Source of the DNA: a virus | Strand: one strand, 5' to 3' | DNA length: 34,653 nucleotides | IMG/VR virus record: IMGVR_UViG_3300046012_000424 | Location: 1-34,653 of that record | Part shown: positions 1,685-13,511 of the stretch, piece by piece | How positions within the stretch are numbered: the stretch's first letter is position 1 | How the letters are laid out: each line of letters opens with the position of its first letter | Notes under the pieces: model-generated | Seen by the model: only the letters and a program-made list of their open reading frames with translations | Databases searched by the model: none | What the model was told of the DNA's origin: nothing | Position numbers and translations under genes: made by a program

Positions 1685-1701
1685 ACTAGGGCAATCAATT
1701 C

Positions 1702-1711
1702 TTGACCGAGG
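1702..1711 (+). repeat. Leader motif TTGACCGAGG, copy 2, overlapping the ribosome-binding site
   Basis: TTGACCGAGG is preceded by C, making the full 11-mer CTTGACCGAGG. Its GAGG is the start of the GAGGAG Shine-Dalgarno of the 1719 gene. Pairing with the loop at 13121-13131 would extend one base further on the A side and resume after single mismatches up to the start codon. This makes it the most complementary of the four sites. Confidence 0.85.
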
Positions 1712-2654: not shown

Positions 2655-4210
2655 AGTATCGCTGGAAGAAACGCCCCTACCGCCATCAGGTAGAGGCCGT
2701 CAAAAAACTCATCAGTACTGGATGGGGCGGCGCATTGTTGATGGAACCCCGGACCGGCAAAACCAAGGTGGTGATTGACTATGCTTCTATTCTTCATCTT
2801 GCTGGTAGGGTCAACAGGATTCTCATCTTCTGTCCTGTATCTGGGCTTGGTGTGTGGGAAGAGCAGATTGCAGATAACTGCCCAGTCCCCTACCGCATCA
2901 CCATCTGGGACAGAAAAACCCGGCGAGGGCGAGTTCGTAGAGGGAGTCGCATAAGACCAGAACTTCCCCGGTTCGGTGACGATATGCTCGACTTCGTCAT
3001 TATGAACTATGATGCTTTGTCCACCCCCGGCAGGGTGATCAAGAAAGATCCTGAGAATGGTGAGATTAGGCGCTCCAGGTCAAGGGGCGGCCGATTCGAC
3101 ATCAAACGCCAGGTTCAATCCTGGCAACCACAGATGATGGTCCTAGACGAATCGCATCGCATCAAGTCACCCAGCGCGCGCAAGACCACCATGCTGCTAT
3201 CCTTGCGTGAGATACCAGATTATCGGATTATCATGACCGGTACTGTTGTGACCAAGAAGAAGCGAATCTTTGACATCTATGCCCAGTGGAAATTCCTCAA
3301 CCCTGATCGCTTTGGTGAGATGACTTTCTCCGAGTTCAAGTCTCAGTACGGAAGGTGGATCAACCGAGATGGGTGGCAAAAGTGGTTACGGAATATCAAC
3401 GAACGCGATCTCCATCGAAAAATACACCTCGATTCTTTCTCGATCACGCGTGAGGAGTGCTACGACCTACCCAAAGAAACCCTCGTCCACATCCCTATTG
3501 AGCTCGAGGAATCCGCCAACATCTATGACCAGATGGCGGCGGACATGGTTGCGAGAATTCAATCAGGTGAGATTACCGAAGCCTCTATCAAACTTGTGCA
3601 GGGACTCAGACTTCGGCAAATTACTAGTGGACTGGCTCGCACAACGCCATCAGCAGATTATCCTAATGGACGACTCGTTCAGATTGGAACTGAGAAACTT
3701 CGAGCCTGGCGAGATAGACTCGAGGATCTCATGGAGATGGACGAGAAGGTCGTCGTCGGGGCGCTCTGGAAAGCCGACATTACTAGGCTCAAGGCCGTAT
3801 GCCTCAAGATGAAAATCCCTACCTTCGTAATCCGCGGAGGGATGAGGAAAGCAGAGCATGTAGCAGCATGGCGAGGTTTTGCTCAGGTATCGGGACATGC
3901 AGTCTTCATCGGTCAACCAGCGGCAGCAGGTGAGGCGATCGACCTATCGACTGCTTCTATCATGCAATGGTTCAGCCTCACGCCTTCCTGGGTCAATTAT
4001 CGGCAATTCAGTGATCGCATCGCCCTCAGCGAGAAACCCACGTTCCATGAGTTCTTCCTAGCGCGCGGCACGGTCGATGAGCTACTCTATGATACTCTGC
4101 AGCAAGATGGTGATCTTGGTAAGGCAATGATAACCTCCCCAGAAAGATTACTCAGGGTTTCAGGAATGTCGGCATTGACTCGTCATAATCTACGTTATAT
4201 GATCGACTAA
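2639..4210 (+). CDS. SF2 (SNF2-like) DNA helicase
   Basis: This 523-residue superfamily 2 ATPase probably unwinds or remodels DNA in phage replication. Motifs visible in order are a Q-type YRHQ (residues 14-17), Walker A EPRTGKT (36-42), DESH box (170-173), TGT of motif III (200-202), a GEAIDLS motif V region near 435, and RQFSDRI resembling motif VI near 455. The length suits a compact phage helicase with no accessory domains. The start is ATG 2639 after GGGGAGA. Its last 40 bases contain promoter P4, which drives the nucleotide operon, so coding and promoter sequence overlap. Confidence 0.9.
   Translation: MGLSVKYRWKKRPYRHQVEAVKKLISTGWGGALLMEPRTGKTKVVIDYASILHLAGRVNRILIFCPVSGLGVWEEQIADNCPVPYRITIWDRKTRRGRVRRGSRIRPELPRFGDDMLDFVIMNYDALSTPGRVIKKDPENGEIRRSRSRGGRFDIKRQVQSWQPQMMVLDESHRIKSPSARKTTMLLSLREIPDYRIIMTGTVVTKKKRIFDIYAQWKFLNPDRFGEMTFSEFKSQYGRWINRDGWQKWLRNINERDLHRKIHLDSFSITREECYDLPKETLVHIPIELEESANIYDQMAADMVARIQSGEITEASIKLVQGLRLRQITSGLARTTPSADYPNGRLVQIGTEKLRAWRDRLEDLMEMDEKVVVGALWKADITRLKAVCLKMKIPTFVIRGGMRKAEHVAAWRGFAQVSGHAVFIGQPAAAGEAIDLSTASIMQWFSLTPSWVNYRQFSDRIALSEKPTFHEFFLARGTVDELLYDTLQQDGDLGKAMITSPERLLRVSGMSALTRHNLRYMID
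4175..4203 (+). promoter_or_regulatory. Promoter P4, inside the end of the helicase gene
   Basis: TTGACT (4175-4180) is followed after 17 bases by TATGAT (4198-4203), a strong sigma70-type match. The 11-mer TCGGCATTGAC (4169-4179) that carries the -35 box is identical to 10311-10321 in P5, although the two are read in different reading frames of unrelated genes. This implies selection on the DNA. The predicted start is near 4210. Confidence 0.8.
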
Positions 4211-4214
4211 TATC

Positions 4215-4224
4215 CTGACCGAGG
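4215..4224 (+). repeat. Leader motif CTGACCGAGG, copy 3 (one mismatch), overlapping the ribosome-binding site
   Basis: This copy differs from the consensus in the first base (C for T). TGACCGAGGA is retained and leads into AGGAGG, the Shine-Dalgarno of the kinase gene, 8 bases before its ATG. It lies 11 bases after the P4 -10 box. Confidence 0.8.
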
Positions 4225-4235
4225 AGGTAACAAGA

Positions 4236-4757
4236 ATGATCGTCGTAGAAGGTCCAGATGGGGGCGGAAAGACAACGCTGATCAAAGAAATCCAGGCCAA
4301 CTTCCCGGTGACCATCGCACCAAAGATCGTCGGCACACAGGGTGAAGCTTTGACCAATATCCGGGCAGCGACTGAAGAGCGAGTACGCAGTCTCAATCAG
4401 GGTGTGGTATTCGATCGTCATCCGGTGATCTCGGGGCCGATCTACCATGTTGTACTAGGCGGACCAACCAACGCCTTCATGTTCGAGAACCCTGGTTGGC
4501 TCTGGGCCATGATCGAATTATTCTATCGCGCCCAGCCAACGATCATCTACTGTATTCCTCCTCGGAAGATCTGTCTCGAAGACAACGCAAACTCTTGGCC
4601 CGATGGTACAAACCATGACGACCGAGAAGCCATCTACGATCTATACCTTGCTCACCGAGGGAGGGATTTCAAAAACTCAGCTCACTACGACTACACAGAA
4701 GGATCGGGACATATGCGCTCGATCATGGGTTACATTAGCCGAGGAGAATTCTTCTAA
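4236..4757 (+). CDS. Deoxynucleoside monophosphate kinase (thymidylate-kinase-like)
   Basis: The 173-residue P-loop kinase has Walker A GPDGGGKTT (residues 6-14) and the DRH motif at 60-62 (FDRHPVISGP), typical of thymidylate and deoxynucleoside kinases, where Asp-Arg-Tyr/His binds the nucleobase and acceptor. It likely converts dNMPs, perhaps modified ones, towards triphosphates in the cytoplasm. It opens the nucleotide operon under P4 with a strong AGGAGG ribosome-binding site. The stop overlaps the next start (TAATG). Substrate specificity cannot be told from the sequence. Confidence 0.85.
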   Translation: MIVVEGPDGGGKTTLIKEIQANFPVTIAPKIVGTQGEALTNIRAATEERVRSLNQGVVFDRHPVISGPIYHVVLGGPTNAFMFENPGWLWAMIELFYRAQPTIIYCIPPRKICLEDNANSWPDGTNHDDREAIYDLYLAHRGRDFKNSAHYDYTEGSGHMRSIMGYISRGEFF

Positions 4758-5239: not shown

Positions 5240-5406
5240 AACAAATCCATGAAGGTCAGATAGTAAACTCGAGTACTGCGATGGGAAGGGTTATAAAGGT
5301 AGTTATCCGTCCGGCAGAAGTTGGCCGAGGGCAGACTGAAGAAATCTACGTAGATTGGATGCTGGGTGCATACCTACCACGCAAGTACCCTAACTGGCCT
5401 TCATAA
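5236..5406 (+). CDS. Small hypothetical protein (56 aa)
   Basis: This small gene starts with GTG in a GTGA overlap with the MazG-like stop, with AAGGAG 8 bases upstream, and ends at TAA 5404-5406. The product begins VKQIHEGQIV and ends YLPRKYPNWPS; it looks like a small beta-barrel-type protein (EIYVDWMLGAYL). The overlap of 41 bases with the next gene is long but both frames look coding. No function is known. Confidence 0.7.
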   Translation: MKQIHEGQIVNSSTAMGRVIKVVIRPAEVGRGQTEEIYVDWMLGAYLPRKYPNWPS

Positions 5407-6394
5407 CCAGATGTGCTCATCGCTCATCATGGCTGAAGCCAAAGACCTCGATCTGATCACCTCAGTCGATGTGCAGAAACACAACGTAATTGCCGAGGCA
5501 GACTCCCTGGAGTGGGAGTTTGACCTGAAGTCCATGTGGCTCACCCCCTCCCGGTGGACCATGATGGTTCGGCAGTATATAGACCCGGAGGAGTTCCAGG
5601 CATGGATGGACACAGTCACAACCAAGATCGGACTGCGGGGTCGCGGTATAGCCGTGATGAGAACCAAGATAGTAAAACCTCGTGGTGGAGCAGCAACTGG
5701 CCACACCAACAAAGAGACCAGGCGATGGGGCTCATGTATGCTCGCCATAAGTTACAAAGCAAAACCGGCACCGCAGATTACTTTGTATTCCAGGACCTCC
5801 TATCTCGGCTATATTGGAGCTCTCGATCTATCTGTCGCTTGGATGGTAGGGCGATACCTGGCTACTGCGATGGGGATCGATGTCTCGACATTCAAGTTCG
5901 TATGGATGAACGAGGCAATACAGTGGCACAATTTCAAGTCTCTTGCTTTCATGCTCAACAACGACGATCCTGATCTTCGCAAGGCTTACCGTCGATTGCT
6001 GATCAAGCCGAAGAGCAAGTTGAATCATGCCGAGAGGGAGGAACTTGAGATAGCCCCAGCAATTCGTCTCTCGAGGCAATGGCTCAGGAAGATGATGAAA
6101 GCTGACGCTGAAGGTGAGACCTACGGGGACATGACTTACAACACCTACCGACGAATTCGCCGGCGGTGGCATACCGAGGTGTTAGGGTACGACCGAGCGC
6201 AAGAGTTTGAGGGGTGGAGTTACTACAAGACTGGGGATAAAGTAGGGGAGCAAAAAGAGTTCTTCAAGGCATATCTGCCTCTGCCCAACTGCCGCATCGA
6301 GACACTGGATTTCCGAGGTATTGGGATGCCTCTTGCCGGTGTACAAGCAGTGGAGTACGAAGGCGGATTCGACGATGGAGAGGATGACGAATGA
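5366..6394 (+). CDS. Thymidylate-synthase-superfamily-like protein, predicted dCMP-type
   Basis: The 342-residue protein starts at GTG 5366, with ATG 5411 as the weaker alternative because the intervening residues look native. RRWGSC (C124), SRTSYLGYIGALDL (R143, D154) and AIQWHNF (H178) line up with the thymidylate synthase catalytic Cys, phosphate-binding Arg, pyrimidine-recognising Asn and His. Cys-to-Arg spacing is 19 and Arg to the Asn position is exactly 11, as in E. coli ThyA (R166, N177). The Asn position is Asp, as in dCMP hydroxymethylase. It is longer than the 6549 paralogue, with a divergent helical C-terminus. The remote homology is my inference; a plain hypothetical protein is the conservative call. 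Confidence 0.6.
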   Translation: MHTYHASTLTGLHNQMCSSLIMAEAKDLDLITSVDVQKHNVIAEADSLEWEFDLKSMWLTPSRWTMMVRQYIDPEEFQAWMDTVTTKIGLRGRGIAVMRTKIVKPRGGAATGHTNKETRRWGSCMLAISYKAKPAPQITLYSRTSYLGYIGALDLSVAWMVGRYLATAMGIDVSTFKFVWMNEAIQWHNFKSLAFMLNNDDPDLRKAYRRLLIKPKSKLNHAEREELEIAPAIRLSRQWLRKMMKADAEGETYGDMTYNTYRRIRRRWHTEVLGYDRAQEFEGWSYYKTGDKVGEQKEFFKAYLPLPNCRIETLDFRGIGMPLAGVQAVEYEGGFDDGEDDE

Positions 6395-7828: not shown

Positions 7829-10320
7829 TTCCCGGTAACCCTAACTGCCAACTATGCAAGCTCCATCGCCAAGCTGATGATGTTTGTATCATGGGCGAGG
7901 GTCCATTGACCGCTTCTGTCATGGTAGTCAGCCGGATGTCTAACAGCGCATCGTTTCAATCCACTCTCGAGACTCAGCTCAGGGAGGTTGGACTAGAACC
8001 TGAGGACATGTACTTCACTCAGGCAATCAAGTGCCGAAACTTCGAGCAGAACTCAAGTAATACTGACGTCAAGACCTGCAAGACCTACCTTGACCTCGAG
8101 ATAGAAACAATCAAGCCTAAGTATATCCTTGCCCTCGGTAATGAAGCCTTACTCGCGACTACAGGACACTCAGGAATCATGAAGTATCGAGGGCGGGTGA
8201 TTGATCGCGAAGGCCATCTTGTCATTCCCACAATATCCCCAAGCGCCGTAAATCGCAACCCTGGCCAACGCCCAGGCTATATGGCCGACCTGCGACTCTT
8301 CAGTAATACCGTGCGCGGGATCGATATGCGCGGAGCTACGATCAAACCCCTGATCGTGGATGACATGGACAAGCTAAAGAAACTCAAGCGAATCCTCGAG
8401 AAATCAGTTTTGATCTCATATGACGTAGAAACACATAGTGAGGAATGGCGATCTGACGGTCGCATTGTCTCAGTATCCGGGACCTGCGAAGTTGAGCTGA
8501 AAGGTAAAATCCATATCTTTGGGTTTGCATTGCCTTTGTATCACCCTGAGAGCCCATGGAAAAAGACATGGCGAGCAGTACTTAGATTCTTAGCTCCGGC
8601 ATGGACTAAGATCAAGAAGATCATTGCTCAGAACGGTAAATACGACGACAAGTGGATGAACACCTTCGGGTGTCCCCTGATCACAACGTTTGACACTATG
8701 CTCGCCATACATCTCCTCAACGAGAATGTACAAAAAGGACTCAAACCACAAGCACAGGCTAGACTTGGTGTGGCTCCTTGGGGTATCGATACTAAACAAC
8801 TATTGACTACACCAATAGCTGAAGTATTAGAATATAACTTTCTAGACACCTACTATACCTACAAAATCTATCTTCAGCTCCGTGAAGAACTGATAGCACA
8901 ACCTCGACTGCTTCGGTTGTTCAAGTTGCTAATGATGCCTGCCCATAAGGAGTTAGTATACTCCGAGATGCGAGGTATCTGGATAGATGTCGAACGACTC
9001 AAAGAACGTAAGCCAATTGCCCAAGCCAAACTGAAGGAGATAGAGAATGGAATTTCTCAGTTTCTTCCGAAGCCTGAGGATGAAGCTTGGCCAAAAGATA
9101 GACGAGGCAGACCATCACCAGTCAACTACAACGCATCCAACTTCGCTCGATGGTTCCTCTTCGAACATCTTCAGTTACCTGTTCTTGCTCGAGGCAAGGA
9201 GAAGGCCGATGGCTCCCCAGGAAGTCCAAGTATGGCTGAAGGAGTTCTTCTCGAACTAGAAACTGAACACCCAGCAGTACGGTTCATGCTAGATCGAGTA
9301 CAGTGGCAAAAAGCCCTGAGTAGTTTCTTCAACGCATATGAGGAGATATACGATGAGGATCATCGAATCCACACGAACTTCAAACTCGCGGGTACTGTCA
9401 CTGGCCGGCTTTCTAGTGGTAAGGCGGATGAAGATAAGATATCCGGAACGCGGGGTAAGGTACGAGGTATCAATCTGCAACAAGTTCCTCGTGATCCATT
9501 CATACGAGGCTTGTTCGGAGCGCCTCCAGGATGGTCTTTTGTGGAAGCGGATTATAGCCAGATTGAGCTTCGGATCGCGGCATTCCTTGCCCGGGAACGA
9601 CACATGCTTCAACTATATTCCCAGGGGGCAGATATTCATCTTACGACAGCCGCTAGAATTGCGGGTATTCCTGAGTCGAGAGTCACTAAGAAGGTACGAA
9701 AAGAGCTGGGTAAACCAGTAAACTTCGGGTTCCTGTATGGGATGAGCTGGGCTAAGTTCATCATCACCGCATTCGTAAACTATGGAGTACGCTATGATGA
9801 ATACGGAGCACGGGCTGCACGAGCCAAATACTTTGAACTCTATCCCGACTTACTTGCCTGGCACGCTCGTCAACGACGACTTGTGGAAGCTCACGGTCGA
9901 GTGCAATCCCCAATTGGACGTATACGACACCTACCTGACATTTACTCACCAGACCAGGGGGTACGAGCTGAAGCTGAGCGCCAAGCTATCAATAGCCCAG
10001 TGCAGGGATTTGCATCGGATCTGGCAGTCCTCTCCATGGTCCACATCACAGCCAAGTTACGCGACCTCGGTATGGCTGCGAACTGTCTTGGATTGGTTCA
10101 CGACGCTATAAACTTTGAGATCCGAAACGACCACCTAGCTCAGGTTTTACCAATCATCAAGGATACAATGGAAGACATGAGCATAGTACGAAAGAAGTTC
10201 GGGGTACACATCGATATCCCCATCATTGCTGACATCAAAGTAGGGCAACACTGGGGAGATGCTGAAGAAATACCAGTTGACGCAGTATACGACTGGGATT
10301 CTTATTCCGCTCGGCATTGA
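7825..10320 (+). CDS. DNA polymerase I with UDG-like N-terminal domain
   Basis: This 831-residue family A polymerase has an unusual front end. Residues 1-160 resemble a family 4 uracil-DNA glycosylase: C8, C11, C70 and C85 match the Fe-S cysteines, but the GEAPG-type motif (after VMVV, residue 35) reads SRMSN and the HPS-type motif reads SPSA (138-141), so it is probably catalytically inactive. Residues 195-345 hold a DEDDy exonuclease: D200 and E202, N270 with D274, and Y337 with D341. Polymerase motifs are EADYSQIELR (D576), K630 with NFGFLYG (633-639), and VHDA (H759, D760, where most enzymes have VHDE). It overlaps the deaminase stop by ATGA and its last bases carry promoter P5. Confidence 0.92.
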   Translation: MIPGNPNCQLCKLHRQADDVCIMGEGPLTASVMVVSRMSNSASFQSTLETQLREVGLEPEDMYFTQAIKCRNFEQNSSNTDVKTCKTYLDLEIETIKPKYILALGNEALLATTGHSGIMKYRGRVIDREGHLVIPTISPSAVNRNPGQRPGYMADLRLFSNTVRGIDMRGATIKPLIVDDMDKLKKLKRILEKSVLISYDVETHSEEWRSDGRIVSVSGTCEVELKGKIHIFGFALPLYHPESPWKKTWRAVLRFLAPAWTKIKKIIAQNGKYDDKWMNTFGCPLITTFDTMLAIHLLNENVQKGLKPQAQARLGVAPWGIDTKQLLTTPIAEVLEYNFLDTYYTYKIYLQLREELIAQPRLLRLFKLLMMPAHKELVYSEMRGIWIDVERLKERKPIAQAKLKEIENGISQFLPKPEDEAWPKDRRGRPSPVNYNASNFARWFLFEHLQLPVLARGKEKADGSPGSPSMAEGVLLELETEHPAVRFMLDRVQWQKALSSFFNAYEEIYDEDHRIHTNFKLAGTVTGRLSSGKADEDKISGTRGKVRGINLQQVPRDPFIRGLFGAPPGWSFVEADYSQIELRIAAFLARERHMLQLYSQGADIHLTTAARIAGIPESRVTKKVRKELGKPVNFGFLYGMSWAKFIITAFVNYGVRYDEYGARAARAKYFELYPDLLAWHARQRRLVEAHGRVQSPIGRIRHLPDIYSPDQGVRAEAERQAINSPVQGFASDLAVLSMVHITAKLRDLGMAANCLGLVHDAINFEIRNDHLAQVLPIIKDTMEDMSIVRKKFGVHIDIPIIADIKVGQHWGDAEEIPVDAVYDWDSYSARH

Positions 10321-10345
10321 CGAGCATGATCCAAATTGATATACT
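10317..10345 (+). promoter_or_regulatory. Promoter P5, overlapping the polymerase stop
   Basis: TTGACG (10317-10322) overlaps the polymerase stop codon, followed after 17 bases by TATACT (10340-10345). TCGGCATTGAC at 10311-10321 is identical to the sequence around P4. GGCAATC follows at the predicted start, as after P3. Confidence 0.85.
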
Positions 10346-10357
10346 GACATGGCAATC

Positions 10358-10367
10358 TTGACCGAGG
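10358..10367 (+). repeat. Leader motif TTGACCGAGG, copy 4, overlapping the ribosome-binding site
   Basis: C precedes the 10-mer, making the full 11-mer CTTGACCGAGG, twelve bases after the P5 -10 box. GAGGGGA is the likely Shine-Dalgarno of the gene starting at 10375, so pairing with the 13121-13131 loop would block its translation. Confidence 0.85.
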
Positions 10368-10374
10368 GGATGTA

Positions 10375-11439
10375 ATGGGGCTCTATACTGACGAGGCAAC
10401 TGGCAAGTTGATTTCGACACACAGTATGTTGAAAACATTCCGCCGTTGCCCTAAGCAAGCAGAGTTCAAGTACGCCATGCGGTTGAAGCCCCGCGTACTA
10501 GCTAAGCCCCTTCGCAGAGGTACCTGGATACATTTACTCCTCGAGGAGTTTCACCAGGGGCGAGATTGGGAGAAACTTCACAAACAACTAAGTCGCAAGT
10601 TCGACGAGTTGTTCGACGAGGAAAAAGATTTCTACGGAGATCTGCCTCAAGAGATCTTTGCCATCATGCAAGCATACATCTGGCACTACAAGTTCGACCC
10701 CTGGAAGGTACTTGAAACTGAGTTCGTTCTGGAGACCGAGTTACCCGATGGAAGTATTTTCCGATGCCGAGTCGACATGCTCATCGAGAATGAGTTCGGC
10801 CTCTGGCTTGTAGATCACAAGTCACACAAGAGTCTACCCGACCATAACTTCAGATTACTCGACGGTCAGTCTGCCCTTTATATCTGGTGCGCGCTACGCA
10901 ACAAGATCCCAGTAGAAGGTTTTATCTGGAACTACCTGCGATGGAAGCCCCCGGGAAAGCCCAAGCTTGCTTATGCAGGTACATCTCGGCAGCGGTTATC
11001 TCTACGCGAGATAGAAACTGACTACCCGACATACGTAAAAGAGCTGCAGCGCCTGAAGCGAGAGGAGGGCCTGAGGATCACCAGTGCTTACTTAGCCAAA
11101 GCTGAGGCTTTGAAACGACAACGGTACAAGCACGGTGAACCTCAGACCTCCCCTTTCTTCAGGCGCGATACCCTCGAGAAGTTGCCGGGCATGCTACGCC
11201 GTGTGGCTCTCGAGAATTACCACACCCACAAGAGAATGCACTCTTACGACTTCTCGAACACTGACTCAGTTGAGCGGGTGGTCGATAGAAGCTGCGGTTT
11301 CTCATGTTCCTACACTGACATCTGCACATCCCAACTCATGGGGGGGAACATCAACACCCTTATCAAACAAAACTACACTCTAGGTGATCCCATGGACTAC
11401 TACAAGGATGACAAGATGCCAGATCGGAATGAAACCTGA
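10375..11439 (+). CDS. Cas4/RecB-like PD-(D/E)xK exonuclease with predicted Fe-S cluster
   Basis: The 354-residue nuclease has H53 (GTWIHLLLE), D134 (RVDML), D147 with K149 in a DHK variant of the usual ExK, and Q165 (QSALYIW), the RecB-family catalytic and QhxxY residues. C25 (RRCPKQ) together with C307, C311 and C317 (CGFSCSYTDIC) gives the four Cys of a Cas4/AddB-type Fe-S cluster. It probably resects DNA ends for recombination with the ATPase and SSB-like protein downstream. Its stop overlaps the next start. It is the first gene of the P5 unit. Confidence 0.85.
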   Translation: MGLYTDEATGKLISTHSMLKTFRRCPKQAEFKYAMRLKPRVLAKPLRRGTWIHLLLEEFHQGRDWEKLHKQLSRKFDELFDEEKDFYGDLPQEIFAIMQAYIWHYKFDPWKVLETEFVLETELPDGSIFRCRVDMLIENEFGLWLVDHKSHKSLPDHNFRLLDGQSALYIWCALRNKIPVEGFIWNYLRWKPPGKPKLAYAGTSRQRLSLREIETDYPTYVKELQRLKREEGLRITSAYLAKAEALKRQRYKHGEPQTSPFFRRDTLEKLPGMLRRVALENYHTHKRMHSYDFSNTDSVERVVDRSCGFSCSYTDICTSQLMGGNINTLIKQNYTLGDPMDYYKDDKMPDRNET

Positions 11440-13054: not shown

Positions 13055-13084
13055 TTGACATTGGGTTGTGGGAGAACTTATCAT
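13055..13084 (+). promoter_or_regulatory. Promoter P6
   Basis: TTGACA (13055-13060) is followed after 18 bases by TATCAT (13079-13084), or after 17 by TTATCA. The predicted start, about seven bases later, falls at 13091, exactly at the first base of the long inverted repeat described next. Confidence 0.75.
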
Positions 13085-13090
13085 AACGAT

Positions 13091-13158
13091 GTGAGAGGCG
13101 CGATGTCTCGGGTTCTTTATCCTCGGTCAAGGGTTTCCCCGGTTTCCGCGCCTCTCAC
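13091..13158 (+). ncRNA. Structured 5' leader or small RNA with antisense loop
   Basis: GTGAGAGGCGCG (13091-13102) and CGCGCCTCTCAC (13147-13158) form a perfect 12-bp stem. Inside it, TCGGG (13108-13112) can pair with CCCGG (13138-13142), leaving a 25-base apical loop. That loop contains CCTCGGTCAAG (13121-13131), the exact reverse complement of the leader motif found at three of the four rightward leaders, with one mismatch in the fourth. The RNA may therefore base-pair with those leaders. No T-run follows the hairpin, so it may be cut from or remain part of the nuclease mRNA. A 19-codon ORF (13103-13162) starts inside it after GAGAGG and could instead be a leader peptide. Confidence 0.6.
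13121..13131 (-). repeat. Inverted copy of the leader motif (CCTCGGTCAAG)
   Basis: The 11-mer reads CTTGACCGAGG on the minus strand and is identical to copies 2 and 4. It is the only inverted copy I found in the window and the only one lying in a hairpin loop. Confidence 0.85.
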
Positions 13159-13178: not shown

Positions 13179-13511
13179 ATGGGCAACCAGCGCGAGAGTC
13201 AGCTGAGTCGAAAGATCATGCAGGCAATCAGAGCTGAGGGTTACTTTTGTTTCAAAGTACATGGTGGACCTACGATGATGTCTGGGCTACCCGATATTAT
13301 CTGCTGCGCTGAGGGGCTCTTCATCGGCCTCGAGACTAAGTTACCTCAGACTCGCAACGAAACCTCGCCTCGCCAAGTCTATGTACATAGTAAAATCAGA
13401 GAAGCTGATGGCATAGCCATTGTAGTTTGTTCAGCTCGAGAAGCGCTTCAAGTGATCCGTGATGCGATTGAGTCACGCAATCAAGTCGATATGCGCGATG
13501 CATCATCCTGA
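13179..13511 (+). CDS. VRR-NUC-type endonuclease
   Basis: The 110-residue PD-(D/E)xK nuclease has E6 in the first helix, GLPDI (D39), ETK (E52, K54) and a following SPRQ (Q66), the order seen in VRR-NUC and Holliday-junction-resolvase-like phage nucleases. It probably cuts branched or flapped DNA during replication and recombination. Its start has AAAGG upstream, 9 bases away. It is the only gene after promoter P6 and the hairpin leader, so its translation or mRNA may be under the control of that structure. Confidence 0.85.
   Translation: MGNQRESQLSRKIMQAIRAEGYFCFKVHGGPTMMSGLPDIICCAEGLFIGLETKLPQTRNETSPRQVYVHSKIREADGIAIVVCSAREALQVIRDAIESRNQVDMRDASS

Follow-up and report, generated by a model that had tools for sequence, protein, structure and literature searches.

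What does the hairpin encoded at positions 13,091 to 13,158 of this viral DNA do, and does it act on genes that lie kilobases away from it? The question was raised by an earlier note on the window, by which we mean the whole stretch of 34,653 nucleotides analyzed here. In that note, an 11-nt element in the hairpin loop was described as the exact reverse complement of a motif in the leaders of early genes, and a phage RNA was proposed to silence the units that carry the motif. The rightward genes of the window serve early and replication functions (helicase, thymidylate kinase, MazG-like, ThyX, dCMP deaminase, DNA polymerase I, Cas4/RecB-like exonuclease, Sak4-like, SSB-like and VRR-NUC), and the structural genes are oriented leftward. 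The product of 5366-6394, a PHROG 13667 protein with no assigned function, is 57-69% identical in all close relatives and is better conserved there than thymidylate kinase or ThyX.

The hairpin locus comprises the following elements:

13055-13084, + strand: promoter of the hairpin RNA, assigned by consensus (TTGACA-18-TATCAT)
13091-13158, + strand: predicted hairpin RNA with a perfect 12-bp outer stem (13091-13102 with 13147-13158); covariance model match at 13092-13157
13121-13131, + strand: loop element CCTCGGTCAAG, antisense to early leaders
13179-13511, + strand: VRR-NUC nuclease/Holliday junction resolvase-like gene (vrr), downstream of the hairpin; PHROG 93, E = 4.5e-20

The sequence confirms that CCTCGGTCAAG lies inside a hairpin with a perfect 12-bp stem directly behind a promoter. 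The stem arms, GTGAGAGGCGCG and CGCGCCTCTCAC, are fully complementary, and the near-consensus promoter (TTGACA at 13055-13060, an 18 bp spacer and TATCAT at 13079-13084) ends 6 nt upstream of the stem. The predicted RNA folds at −36.1 kcal/mol (z = −3.1). The hairpin had been described as two-tiered; the 12-bp stem and the placement of the loop stand, but the minimum-energy fold contains a third small apical helix, and the part of the loop that is fully exposed is CGGUCA. Within the loop element, CCTC forms an anti-Shine-Dalgarno (SD) part and GGTCAAG a specificity part. An Rfam search returned no family match at the gathering score in the window, and none in the hairpin region of contig L107 at E values up to 1.

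A pattern search over the whole window located exact matches to CTTGACCGAGG, the reverse complement of the loop element, at 1701-1711 (+), 10357-10367 (+) and, in the hairpin itself, 13121-13131 (−). One-mismatch copies are found at 276-286 (before gene 332) and 4214-4224 (before gene 4236), confirming the exact motif reported before 1719 and 10375 and the near-copies before 4236 and 332; the remaining one-mismatch match, at 2425, is intragenic. The tagged leaders and their promoters, with predicted duplex energies against the loop, are:

229-257, + strand: promoter of the 332 leader, consensus match
276-286, + strand: leader tag ATTGACCGAGG in the 5' leader of gene 332-871, off its SD; duplex −20.5 kcal/mol
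1656-1684, + strand: promoter of the 1719 leader, consensus match
1701-1711, + strand: leader tag CTTGACCGAGG over the SD of gene 1719-1988 (89 aa, function unassigned); duplex −23.3 kcal/mol
4175-4203, + strand: promoter of the 4236 leader, consensus match
4214-4224, + strand: leader tag CCTGACCGAGG over the SD of the thymidylate-kinase-like gene 4236-4757; duplex −20.5 kcal/mol
10317-10345, + strand: promoter of the exonuclease leader, consensus match
10357-10367, + strand: leader tag CTTGACCGAGG over the SD of the Cas4/RecB-like exonuclease gene 10375-11439; duplex −22.2 kcal/mol

A promoter-like sequence of the form TTGAC...TAnnnT precedes all four tagged sites, and the tag common to the window and its relatives reads YTGACCGAGG. 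The tags before 1719, 10375 and 4236 cover the SD, as previously described; the tag at 276 does not, lying about 45 nt from the start of 332 and leaving the SD of that gene uncovered. The extended pairing claimed for the 1719 leader also holds, with 12 contiguous pairs followed, past single mismatches, by AAA and AA up to the first base of the ATG.

An RNA-RNA interaction prediction, suggested at the time for the four leaders, was run using the apical 17 nt of the loop. The tagged leaders pair at −20.5 to −23.3 kcal/mol versus −5 to −15 kcal/mol for eight other leaders of the window, and the vrr leader itself pairs poorly (−5.6 kcal/mol). The apical 17 nt were adopted instead of a 31-nt loop; scored against 475 putative starts, the longer loop was unspecific, with unrelated leaders also reaching about −25 kcal/mol. 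Another C-rich segment near an SD occurs at 1176-1200, in the leader of gene 1224, which can form CCTCGCCTC-AAAA-GGGGGCGGGG.

A random 11-mer is expected 2 × 34,653/4^11 = 0.017 times in the window, in agreement with the 0.02 given before. Within one window, such odds carry little weight by themselves; the strong argument is the comparison with relatives. Megablast of the window against cultured phages gave no match, and the closest cultured polymerases are 57% identical. Scanning viral contigs for promoter plus tag yielded 59 stretches, several of them relatives with exonuclease, SSB and VRR-NUC genes. Because such a scan selects for the tag, relatives were resampled by protein alignment with the tag ignored (52 loci from exonuclease and 77 from polymerase alignments), and removal of duplicates left 67 contigs with a VRR-NUC gene. 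A scan of genome contigs returned one scaffold, L244 (QHXS01000048.1), in which no tag was found; it belongs to an Acidobacteria MAG, encodes an exonuclease at 55% identity and is probably a misbinned phage.

In the tag-bearing relatives, a hairpin is located between the SSB-like gene and vrr, mostly just upstream of the latter and in some phages separated from it by another gene. Its stem varies by phage, as illustrated by the arms GGGCAGCCCGG/CCGGGCTGCCC, GGGCGGTCCGACCAC/GTGGTCGGACCGCCC, GAGGGCCCGGCACC/GGTGCCGGGCTCTC and GGGGCCACCCAGC/GCTGGGTGGCCCC, and its loop keeps CCTCGGTC. Each of 18 contigs contains exactly one such hairpin. When eight hairpins were aligned, 95% of the cells were paired and 9 of the 15 pairs had changed on both sides; none of 500 shuffles was as good, and sliding the partner by one column reduced pairing to about 50%. 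With these covarying pairs and with fold z scores of −3.1 to −5.6 across the window and its relatives, the hairpin has the structure expected of a base-pairing phage RNA, with the pairing segment displayed in its loop. A covariance model built from the eight hairpins recovers more distant ones, including that of the window (25.9 bits, E = 0.004), and also points to two additional hairpins, in L157 and L154. A TTGAC-type promoter is found 6-75 nt upstream of most hairpins. No U-tract was found 3' of the hairpins of the window and its relatives, which gives no basis for predicting a free small RNA with a definite length.

The promoter region of some relatives has further features. In L166, L168, L170, L181, L109 and L167, the −35/−10 spacer of the hairpin promoter holds a slightly varied inverted repeat, TCTCAT...ATGAGA, likely an operator controlling the hairpin RNA; the repeat is absent in the window. 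Additionally, L166 and L181 carry a second long hairpin between the promoter and the antisense hairpin (e.g., TCAACCGCGGGG/CCCCGCGGTTGA).

In tag-bearing genomes GACCGAGG occurs 139 times versus about 27 expected and, with hairpins excluded, promoter-proximal tags directly before a start codon number 64 in sense versus 1 in antisense orientation (18 contigs). The genes tagged in this way are those for the exonuclease, SSB-like, thymidylate kinase and g1981-like proteins and several leftward early genes, and in nearly all cases the duplex would span an SD located 4-13 nt upstream of the start codon. For the leader variants CCGACCGAGG, TCGACCGAGG, GACCGAGGG and GAAAGGGGC, the loop is in each case the matching complement.

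The proposal had been staked on loop and leader motif changing together in related phages, and they do, as seen from stem-variable hairpins at the same locus, covarying flanks, a clade with a different word and cultured Streptomyces phages. In permutation tests, which are inflated by the relatedness of the phages since swapping loops does not remove kinship, the summed longest complement between the exonuclease leader and its own loop was 246 versus 193 ± 8 after swapping (maximum 227 in 20,000 permutations; 29 contigs, hairpins chosen on position and stem alone). Complementary stretches of 9 nt or more between exonuclease leader and loop numbered 14 in the same contigs, versus 4.9 with swapped loops (maximum 11). 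In the 17 contigs that have the core in common, the 2-3 bases on its 5' side covary with the phage's own loop, 0 of 20,000 swaps being as good, and the SD-side (3') flank showed no covariation beyond chance. Leaders with CCGACC go with GGTCGG loops in L132, L140 and L178, and the TCGACC leader of L143 with a GGTCGA loop. Taking all promoter-proximal leaders and one contig per lineage, with hand-picked hairpins among those used, 34 matches of 10 nt were obtained versus 9.6 ± 3.0 after swapping (maximum 24). In each of these tests, a phage's own loop and leader outscored swapped ones in all 20,000 permutations.

The different-word clade (L135, L138 and L186, with hand-picked hairpins among those considered) is nested among core-bearing phages in the exonuclease tree. 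L186 combines the exonuclease leader GAAAGGGGCGA with the loop TCGCCCCTTTC; in L138 the loop TGCCCCTTTC accompanies three GAAAGGGGCA leaders, including those of the exonuclease and a thymidylate-kinase-like gene; and in L135 AAAGGGCA is paired with TGCCCTTT. Among the cultured Streptomyces phages, Zuko (MN204493) has before gene 83 a hairpin with stem GCCCCGC/GCGGGGC and loop ACAGATTCCGTTCCCTCGGTTGCTGTC, to which the gene 91 leader, ACAGCAACCGAGGGA, is an exact 15-nt complement. KimJongPhill (MW822144) has a hairpin with stem GAGCCCCGCG/CGCGGGGCTC and a loop containing CCCTCGGTTACG, and carries ACCGAGGGA before genes 89, 93, 94 and 116. Whole-record searches located ACCGAGGGA on the leftward strand 9 times in Zuko and 7 times in KimJongPhill, the reversed hairpin copy counted, and not once on the opposite strand of either phage. 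Judged by sequence comparison, the predicted loop-leader pairing is strongly supported by coevolution, and complementarity of the loop to the ribosome-binding regions of its putative targets has been kept in evolution.

The pairing does not extend to every relative. No leader match was found in L148, L155, L147, L151, L175, L183, L185 and L002 despite a hairpin at the same place, and the Triscuit/Shrew clade has neither antisense loop nor tags. In Muddy, NoShow, Gibbous, Vine and SteamedHams the gene table has (almost) no gap before vrr, or no vrr, and these phages therefore provide no test of pairing. The hairpins of L183 and L185 lie about 100 nt upstream of vrr and have near-identical loops, TTCTCCT(T/A)GTCGAGGGCAGCGT, on differing stems. 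In L192 (minus strand, 2407) and L201 (minus strand, 1574 and 469), the sequence matched by the loop, ACTCCTTTGCCTGGGGTGCGTCA, is not an SD but the start and first codons (ATGACGCACCCC) of small early genes, and this clade possibly directs the same device at the start codon.

Could the 11-mer instead be a DNA operator for a phage repressor or activator near the early promoters, the copy at 13121 being the same operator reversed? Every site does lie no more than about 40 bp downstream of a −10 box, and L5-type stoperators are asymmetric and oriented, as mentioned in PMC3203893 and PMC4351075. However, the reverse copy always sits in the loop of a hairpin whose stem changes yet remains paired, a structure that an operator does not need and that sets it apart from a cluster A stoperator-type site, whose reversed copy would function as duplex DNA. 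Moreover, the spacing from the SD and start codon is preserved, unlike that from the −10 box, which varies, and with 64 sense sites to 1 antisense the hairpin copy alone is reversed; we consider an operator distinctly unlikely. Binding of the tag in the mRNA by a protein, either RegA-like or a ribosome-associated factor, would leave the hairpin unrelated or a by-product. It would account for tags over the SDs of several early mRNAs, reminiscent of the operators of T4 RegA (PMC3014915), but a sponge for such a protein would bear the sense sequence, whereas the hairpin bears the complement, and loop and tag flanks covary by base complementarity, making this reading very improbable.

The pairing might also be real with an outcome other than repression, such that the tagged mRNAs are stabilized or activated, or that their leaders titrate the hairpin RNA or the vrr mRNA. 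Base pairing is symmetric, repression is itself what we infer, and the tag at 276 is off the SD; on the other hand, nearly all other duplexes would cover an SD at 4-13 nt from the start codon, and the vrr leader itself pairs poorly with the loop. On balance, such an outcome is unlikely. As for coincidence, an 11-mer repeat landing in a hairpin by chance, matches of 12 nt are not rare when a single window is compared all against all, and a shuffle control gave 20 matches with up to 2 mismatches versus 11.5 expected. The arrangement returns in no fewer than 20 other genomes, whose stems are independent and whose loops change to match; this leaves coincidence with a negligible probability, and as far as the comparative data go it is already refuted.

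The hairpin at 13091-13158 is very probably a trans-acting regulatory phage RNA, the loop of which occludes the tagged SDs of replication and early genes. We infer its transcription, RNA-RNA pairing in the cell, the repressive outcome and the timing; with promoters assigned by consensus, production of the hairpin RNA during infection is predicted. Since the 332 leader is the only one of the four whose SD would lie outside the duplex, repression of initiation would be expected. The RNA may be a small RNA, a processed 5' end, or the VRR-NUC mRNA leader acting in trans, the last two forms being suggested by the missing U-tract together with the intervening gene in some relatives. In the proposed mechanism, early promoters would start short leaders whose SD is extended 5' by a matching tag (CUUGACC-GAGG), and the loop would join the anti-SD segment CCUC to the specificity segment GGUCAAG. 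The exposed CGGUCA would nucleate on the tag, pairing would then spread over the SD, and the resulting duplex would block 30S binding and perhaps also be a substrate for RNase III. As the hairpin RNA accumulates, exonuclease and thymidylate kinase would be turned down jointly, as would, among others, the SSB-like gene and leftward early genes of relatives.

Phage antisense regulation at ribosome-binding sites is of a known kind, of which the design of one hairpin directed at many tagged leaders, with visible coevolution, is a notable variant. Bacterial trans-acting sRNAs have C-rich SD-pairing loops that combine an anti-SD segment with specificity bases, and act on several mRNA targets. These are host-encoded, whereas the present hairpin is phage-encoded and comes with a coevolving multi-gene SD tag. 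The c4 RNA adjoins, and is co-transcribed with, a single target operon in a temperate phage; the putative targets here are scattered and lie kilobases away. Looped antisense segments of the c4 RNA of P1 and P7 block the ant ribosome-binding region (reviewed in PMC12197685). The present system resembles it as a phage RNA with looped segments pairing at a ribosome-binding region, with a presumed block of translation. Unlike c4, which has ant as its single target, one loop here matches several scattered early units, the tag system coevolves across many phages, and no immunity function is indicated. T4 has two comparable agents (PMC3014915): RegA, a competitor of ribosomes at about 30 translation initiation regions, and RegB, which cleaves early mRNAs at GGAG SD sites. 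The down-regulation proposed here would likewise be global and act on early mRNAs where translation initiates, but RegA and RegB are both proteins and the recognizing agent here would be RNA.

Among published features, the closest is the Start-Associated Sequence (SAS), which occurs in cluster K mycobacteriophages and in Microbacterium phages of cluster EF. It is described in PMC3203893 and PMC7302621 as a conserved SD-containing 13-mer, located 3-9 nt upstream of the start codon in 10-19 non-structural genes. It occurs in one orientation, often behind its own promoter, and is longer than 16S pairing requires; its function was left unexplained. The SAS section of PMC3203893 left open a phage RNA or protein as binder and noted, in 2011, a single reverse-oriented SAS in each of four K1 genomes; an antisense partner is not proposed in the SAS sections of either report. 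Like SAS, the tag of the window and its relatives contains the SD and is found immediately before the start codons of many non-structural genes, in one orientation; unlike SAS, it reads YTGACCGAGG and not the 13-mer GGGATAGGAGCCC, and the genomes are unrelated.

In Adephagia, Anaya, Guanica15, Niklas and LilPharaoh, the reverse-oriented K1 SAS makes up the apical loop of a hairpin that is itself conserved. It is located at 58,685-58,694 in Adephagia, within a hairpin at about 58,661-58,713 (L264:33662-33714), and at 59,873-59,882 in Anaya (L266). Across seven K phages, 112 of 112 cells of this hairpin are paired and two pairs have changed on both sides. The Adephagia hairpin lies in the gap between genes 92 and 93, in which late transcription begins according to RNA-seq (PMC11373665). 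The cluster K phages examined outside K1 do not fit: the hairpin is retained in Hammy and Ekdilam, along with 15 SAS copies, but their loop, CTCCTTCCCC, no longer matches SAS, and no antisense loop was found in Pixie and ZoeJ. None was found in 20000-56707 of the EF phage AnnaSerena either. We therefore regard the link to SAS as a promising lead and not yet as a result.

Early-to-late control in actinobacterial phages is, to our knowledge, mostly unexplained, and we know of no partner for the SD-containing repeats before early genes that have been catalogued since 2011. A matching, coevolving loop is a concrete and testable partner for such repeats. We tentatively consider a widespread class, in which one hairpin per genome is keyed to a phage-specific extended SD tag with a coevolving early regulon, K1 SAS included, as a serious possibility, although we lean slightly against it. 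If true, the position of the K1 hairpin in the gap where late transcription starts would mean that early translation is brought to an end by late transcription itself. The loop-tag rule predicts the switched genes of each phage from sequence alone, and the hairpin/tag pair offers a compact orthogonal translation switch. With Zuko, KimJongPhill and, in weaker form, Adephagia as cultured carriers, the system is directly testable.
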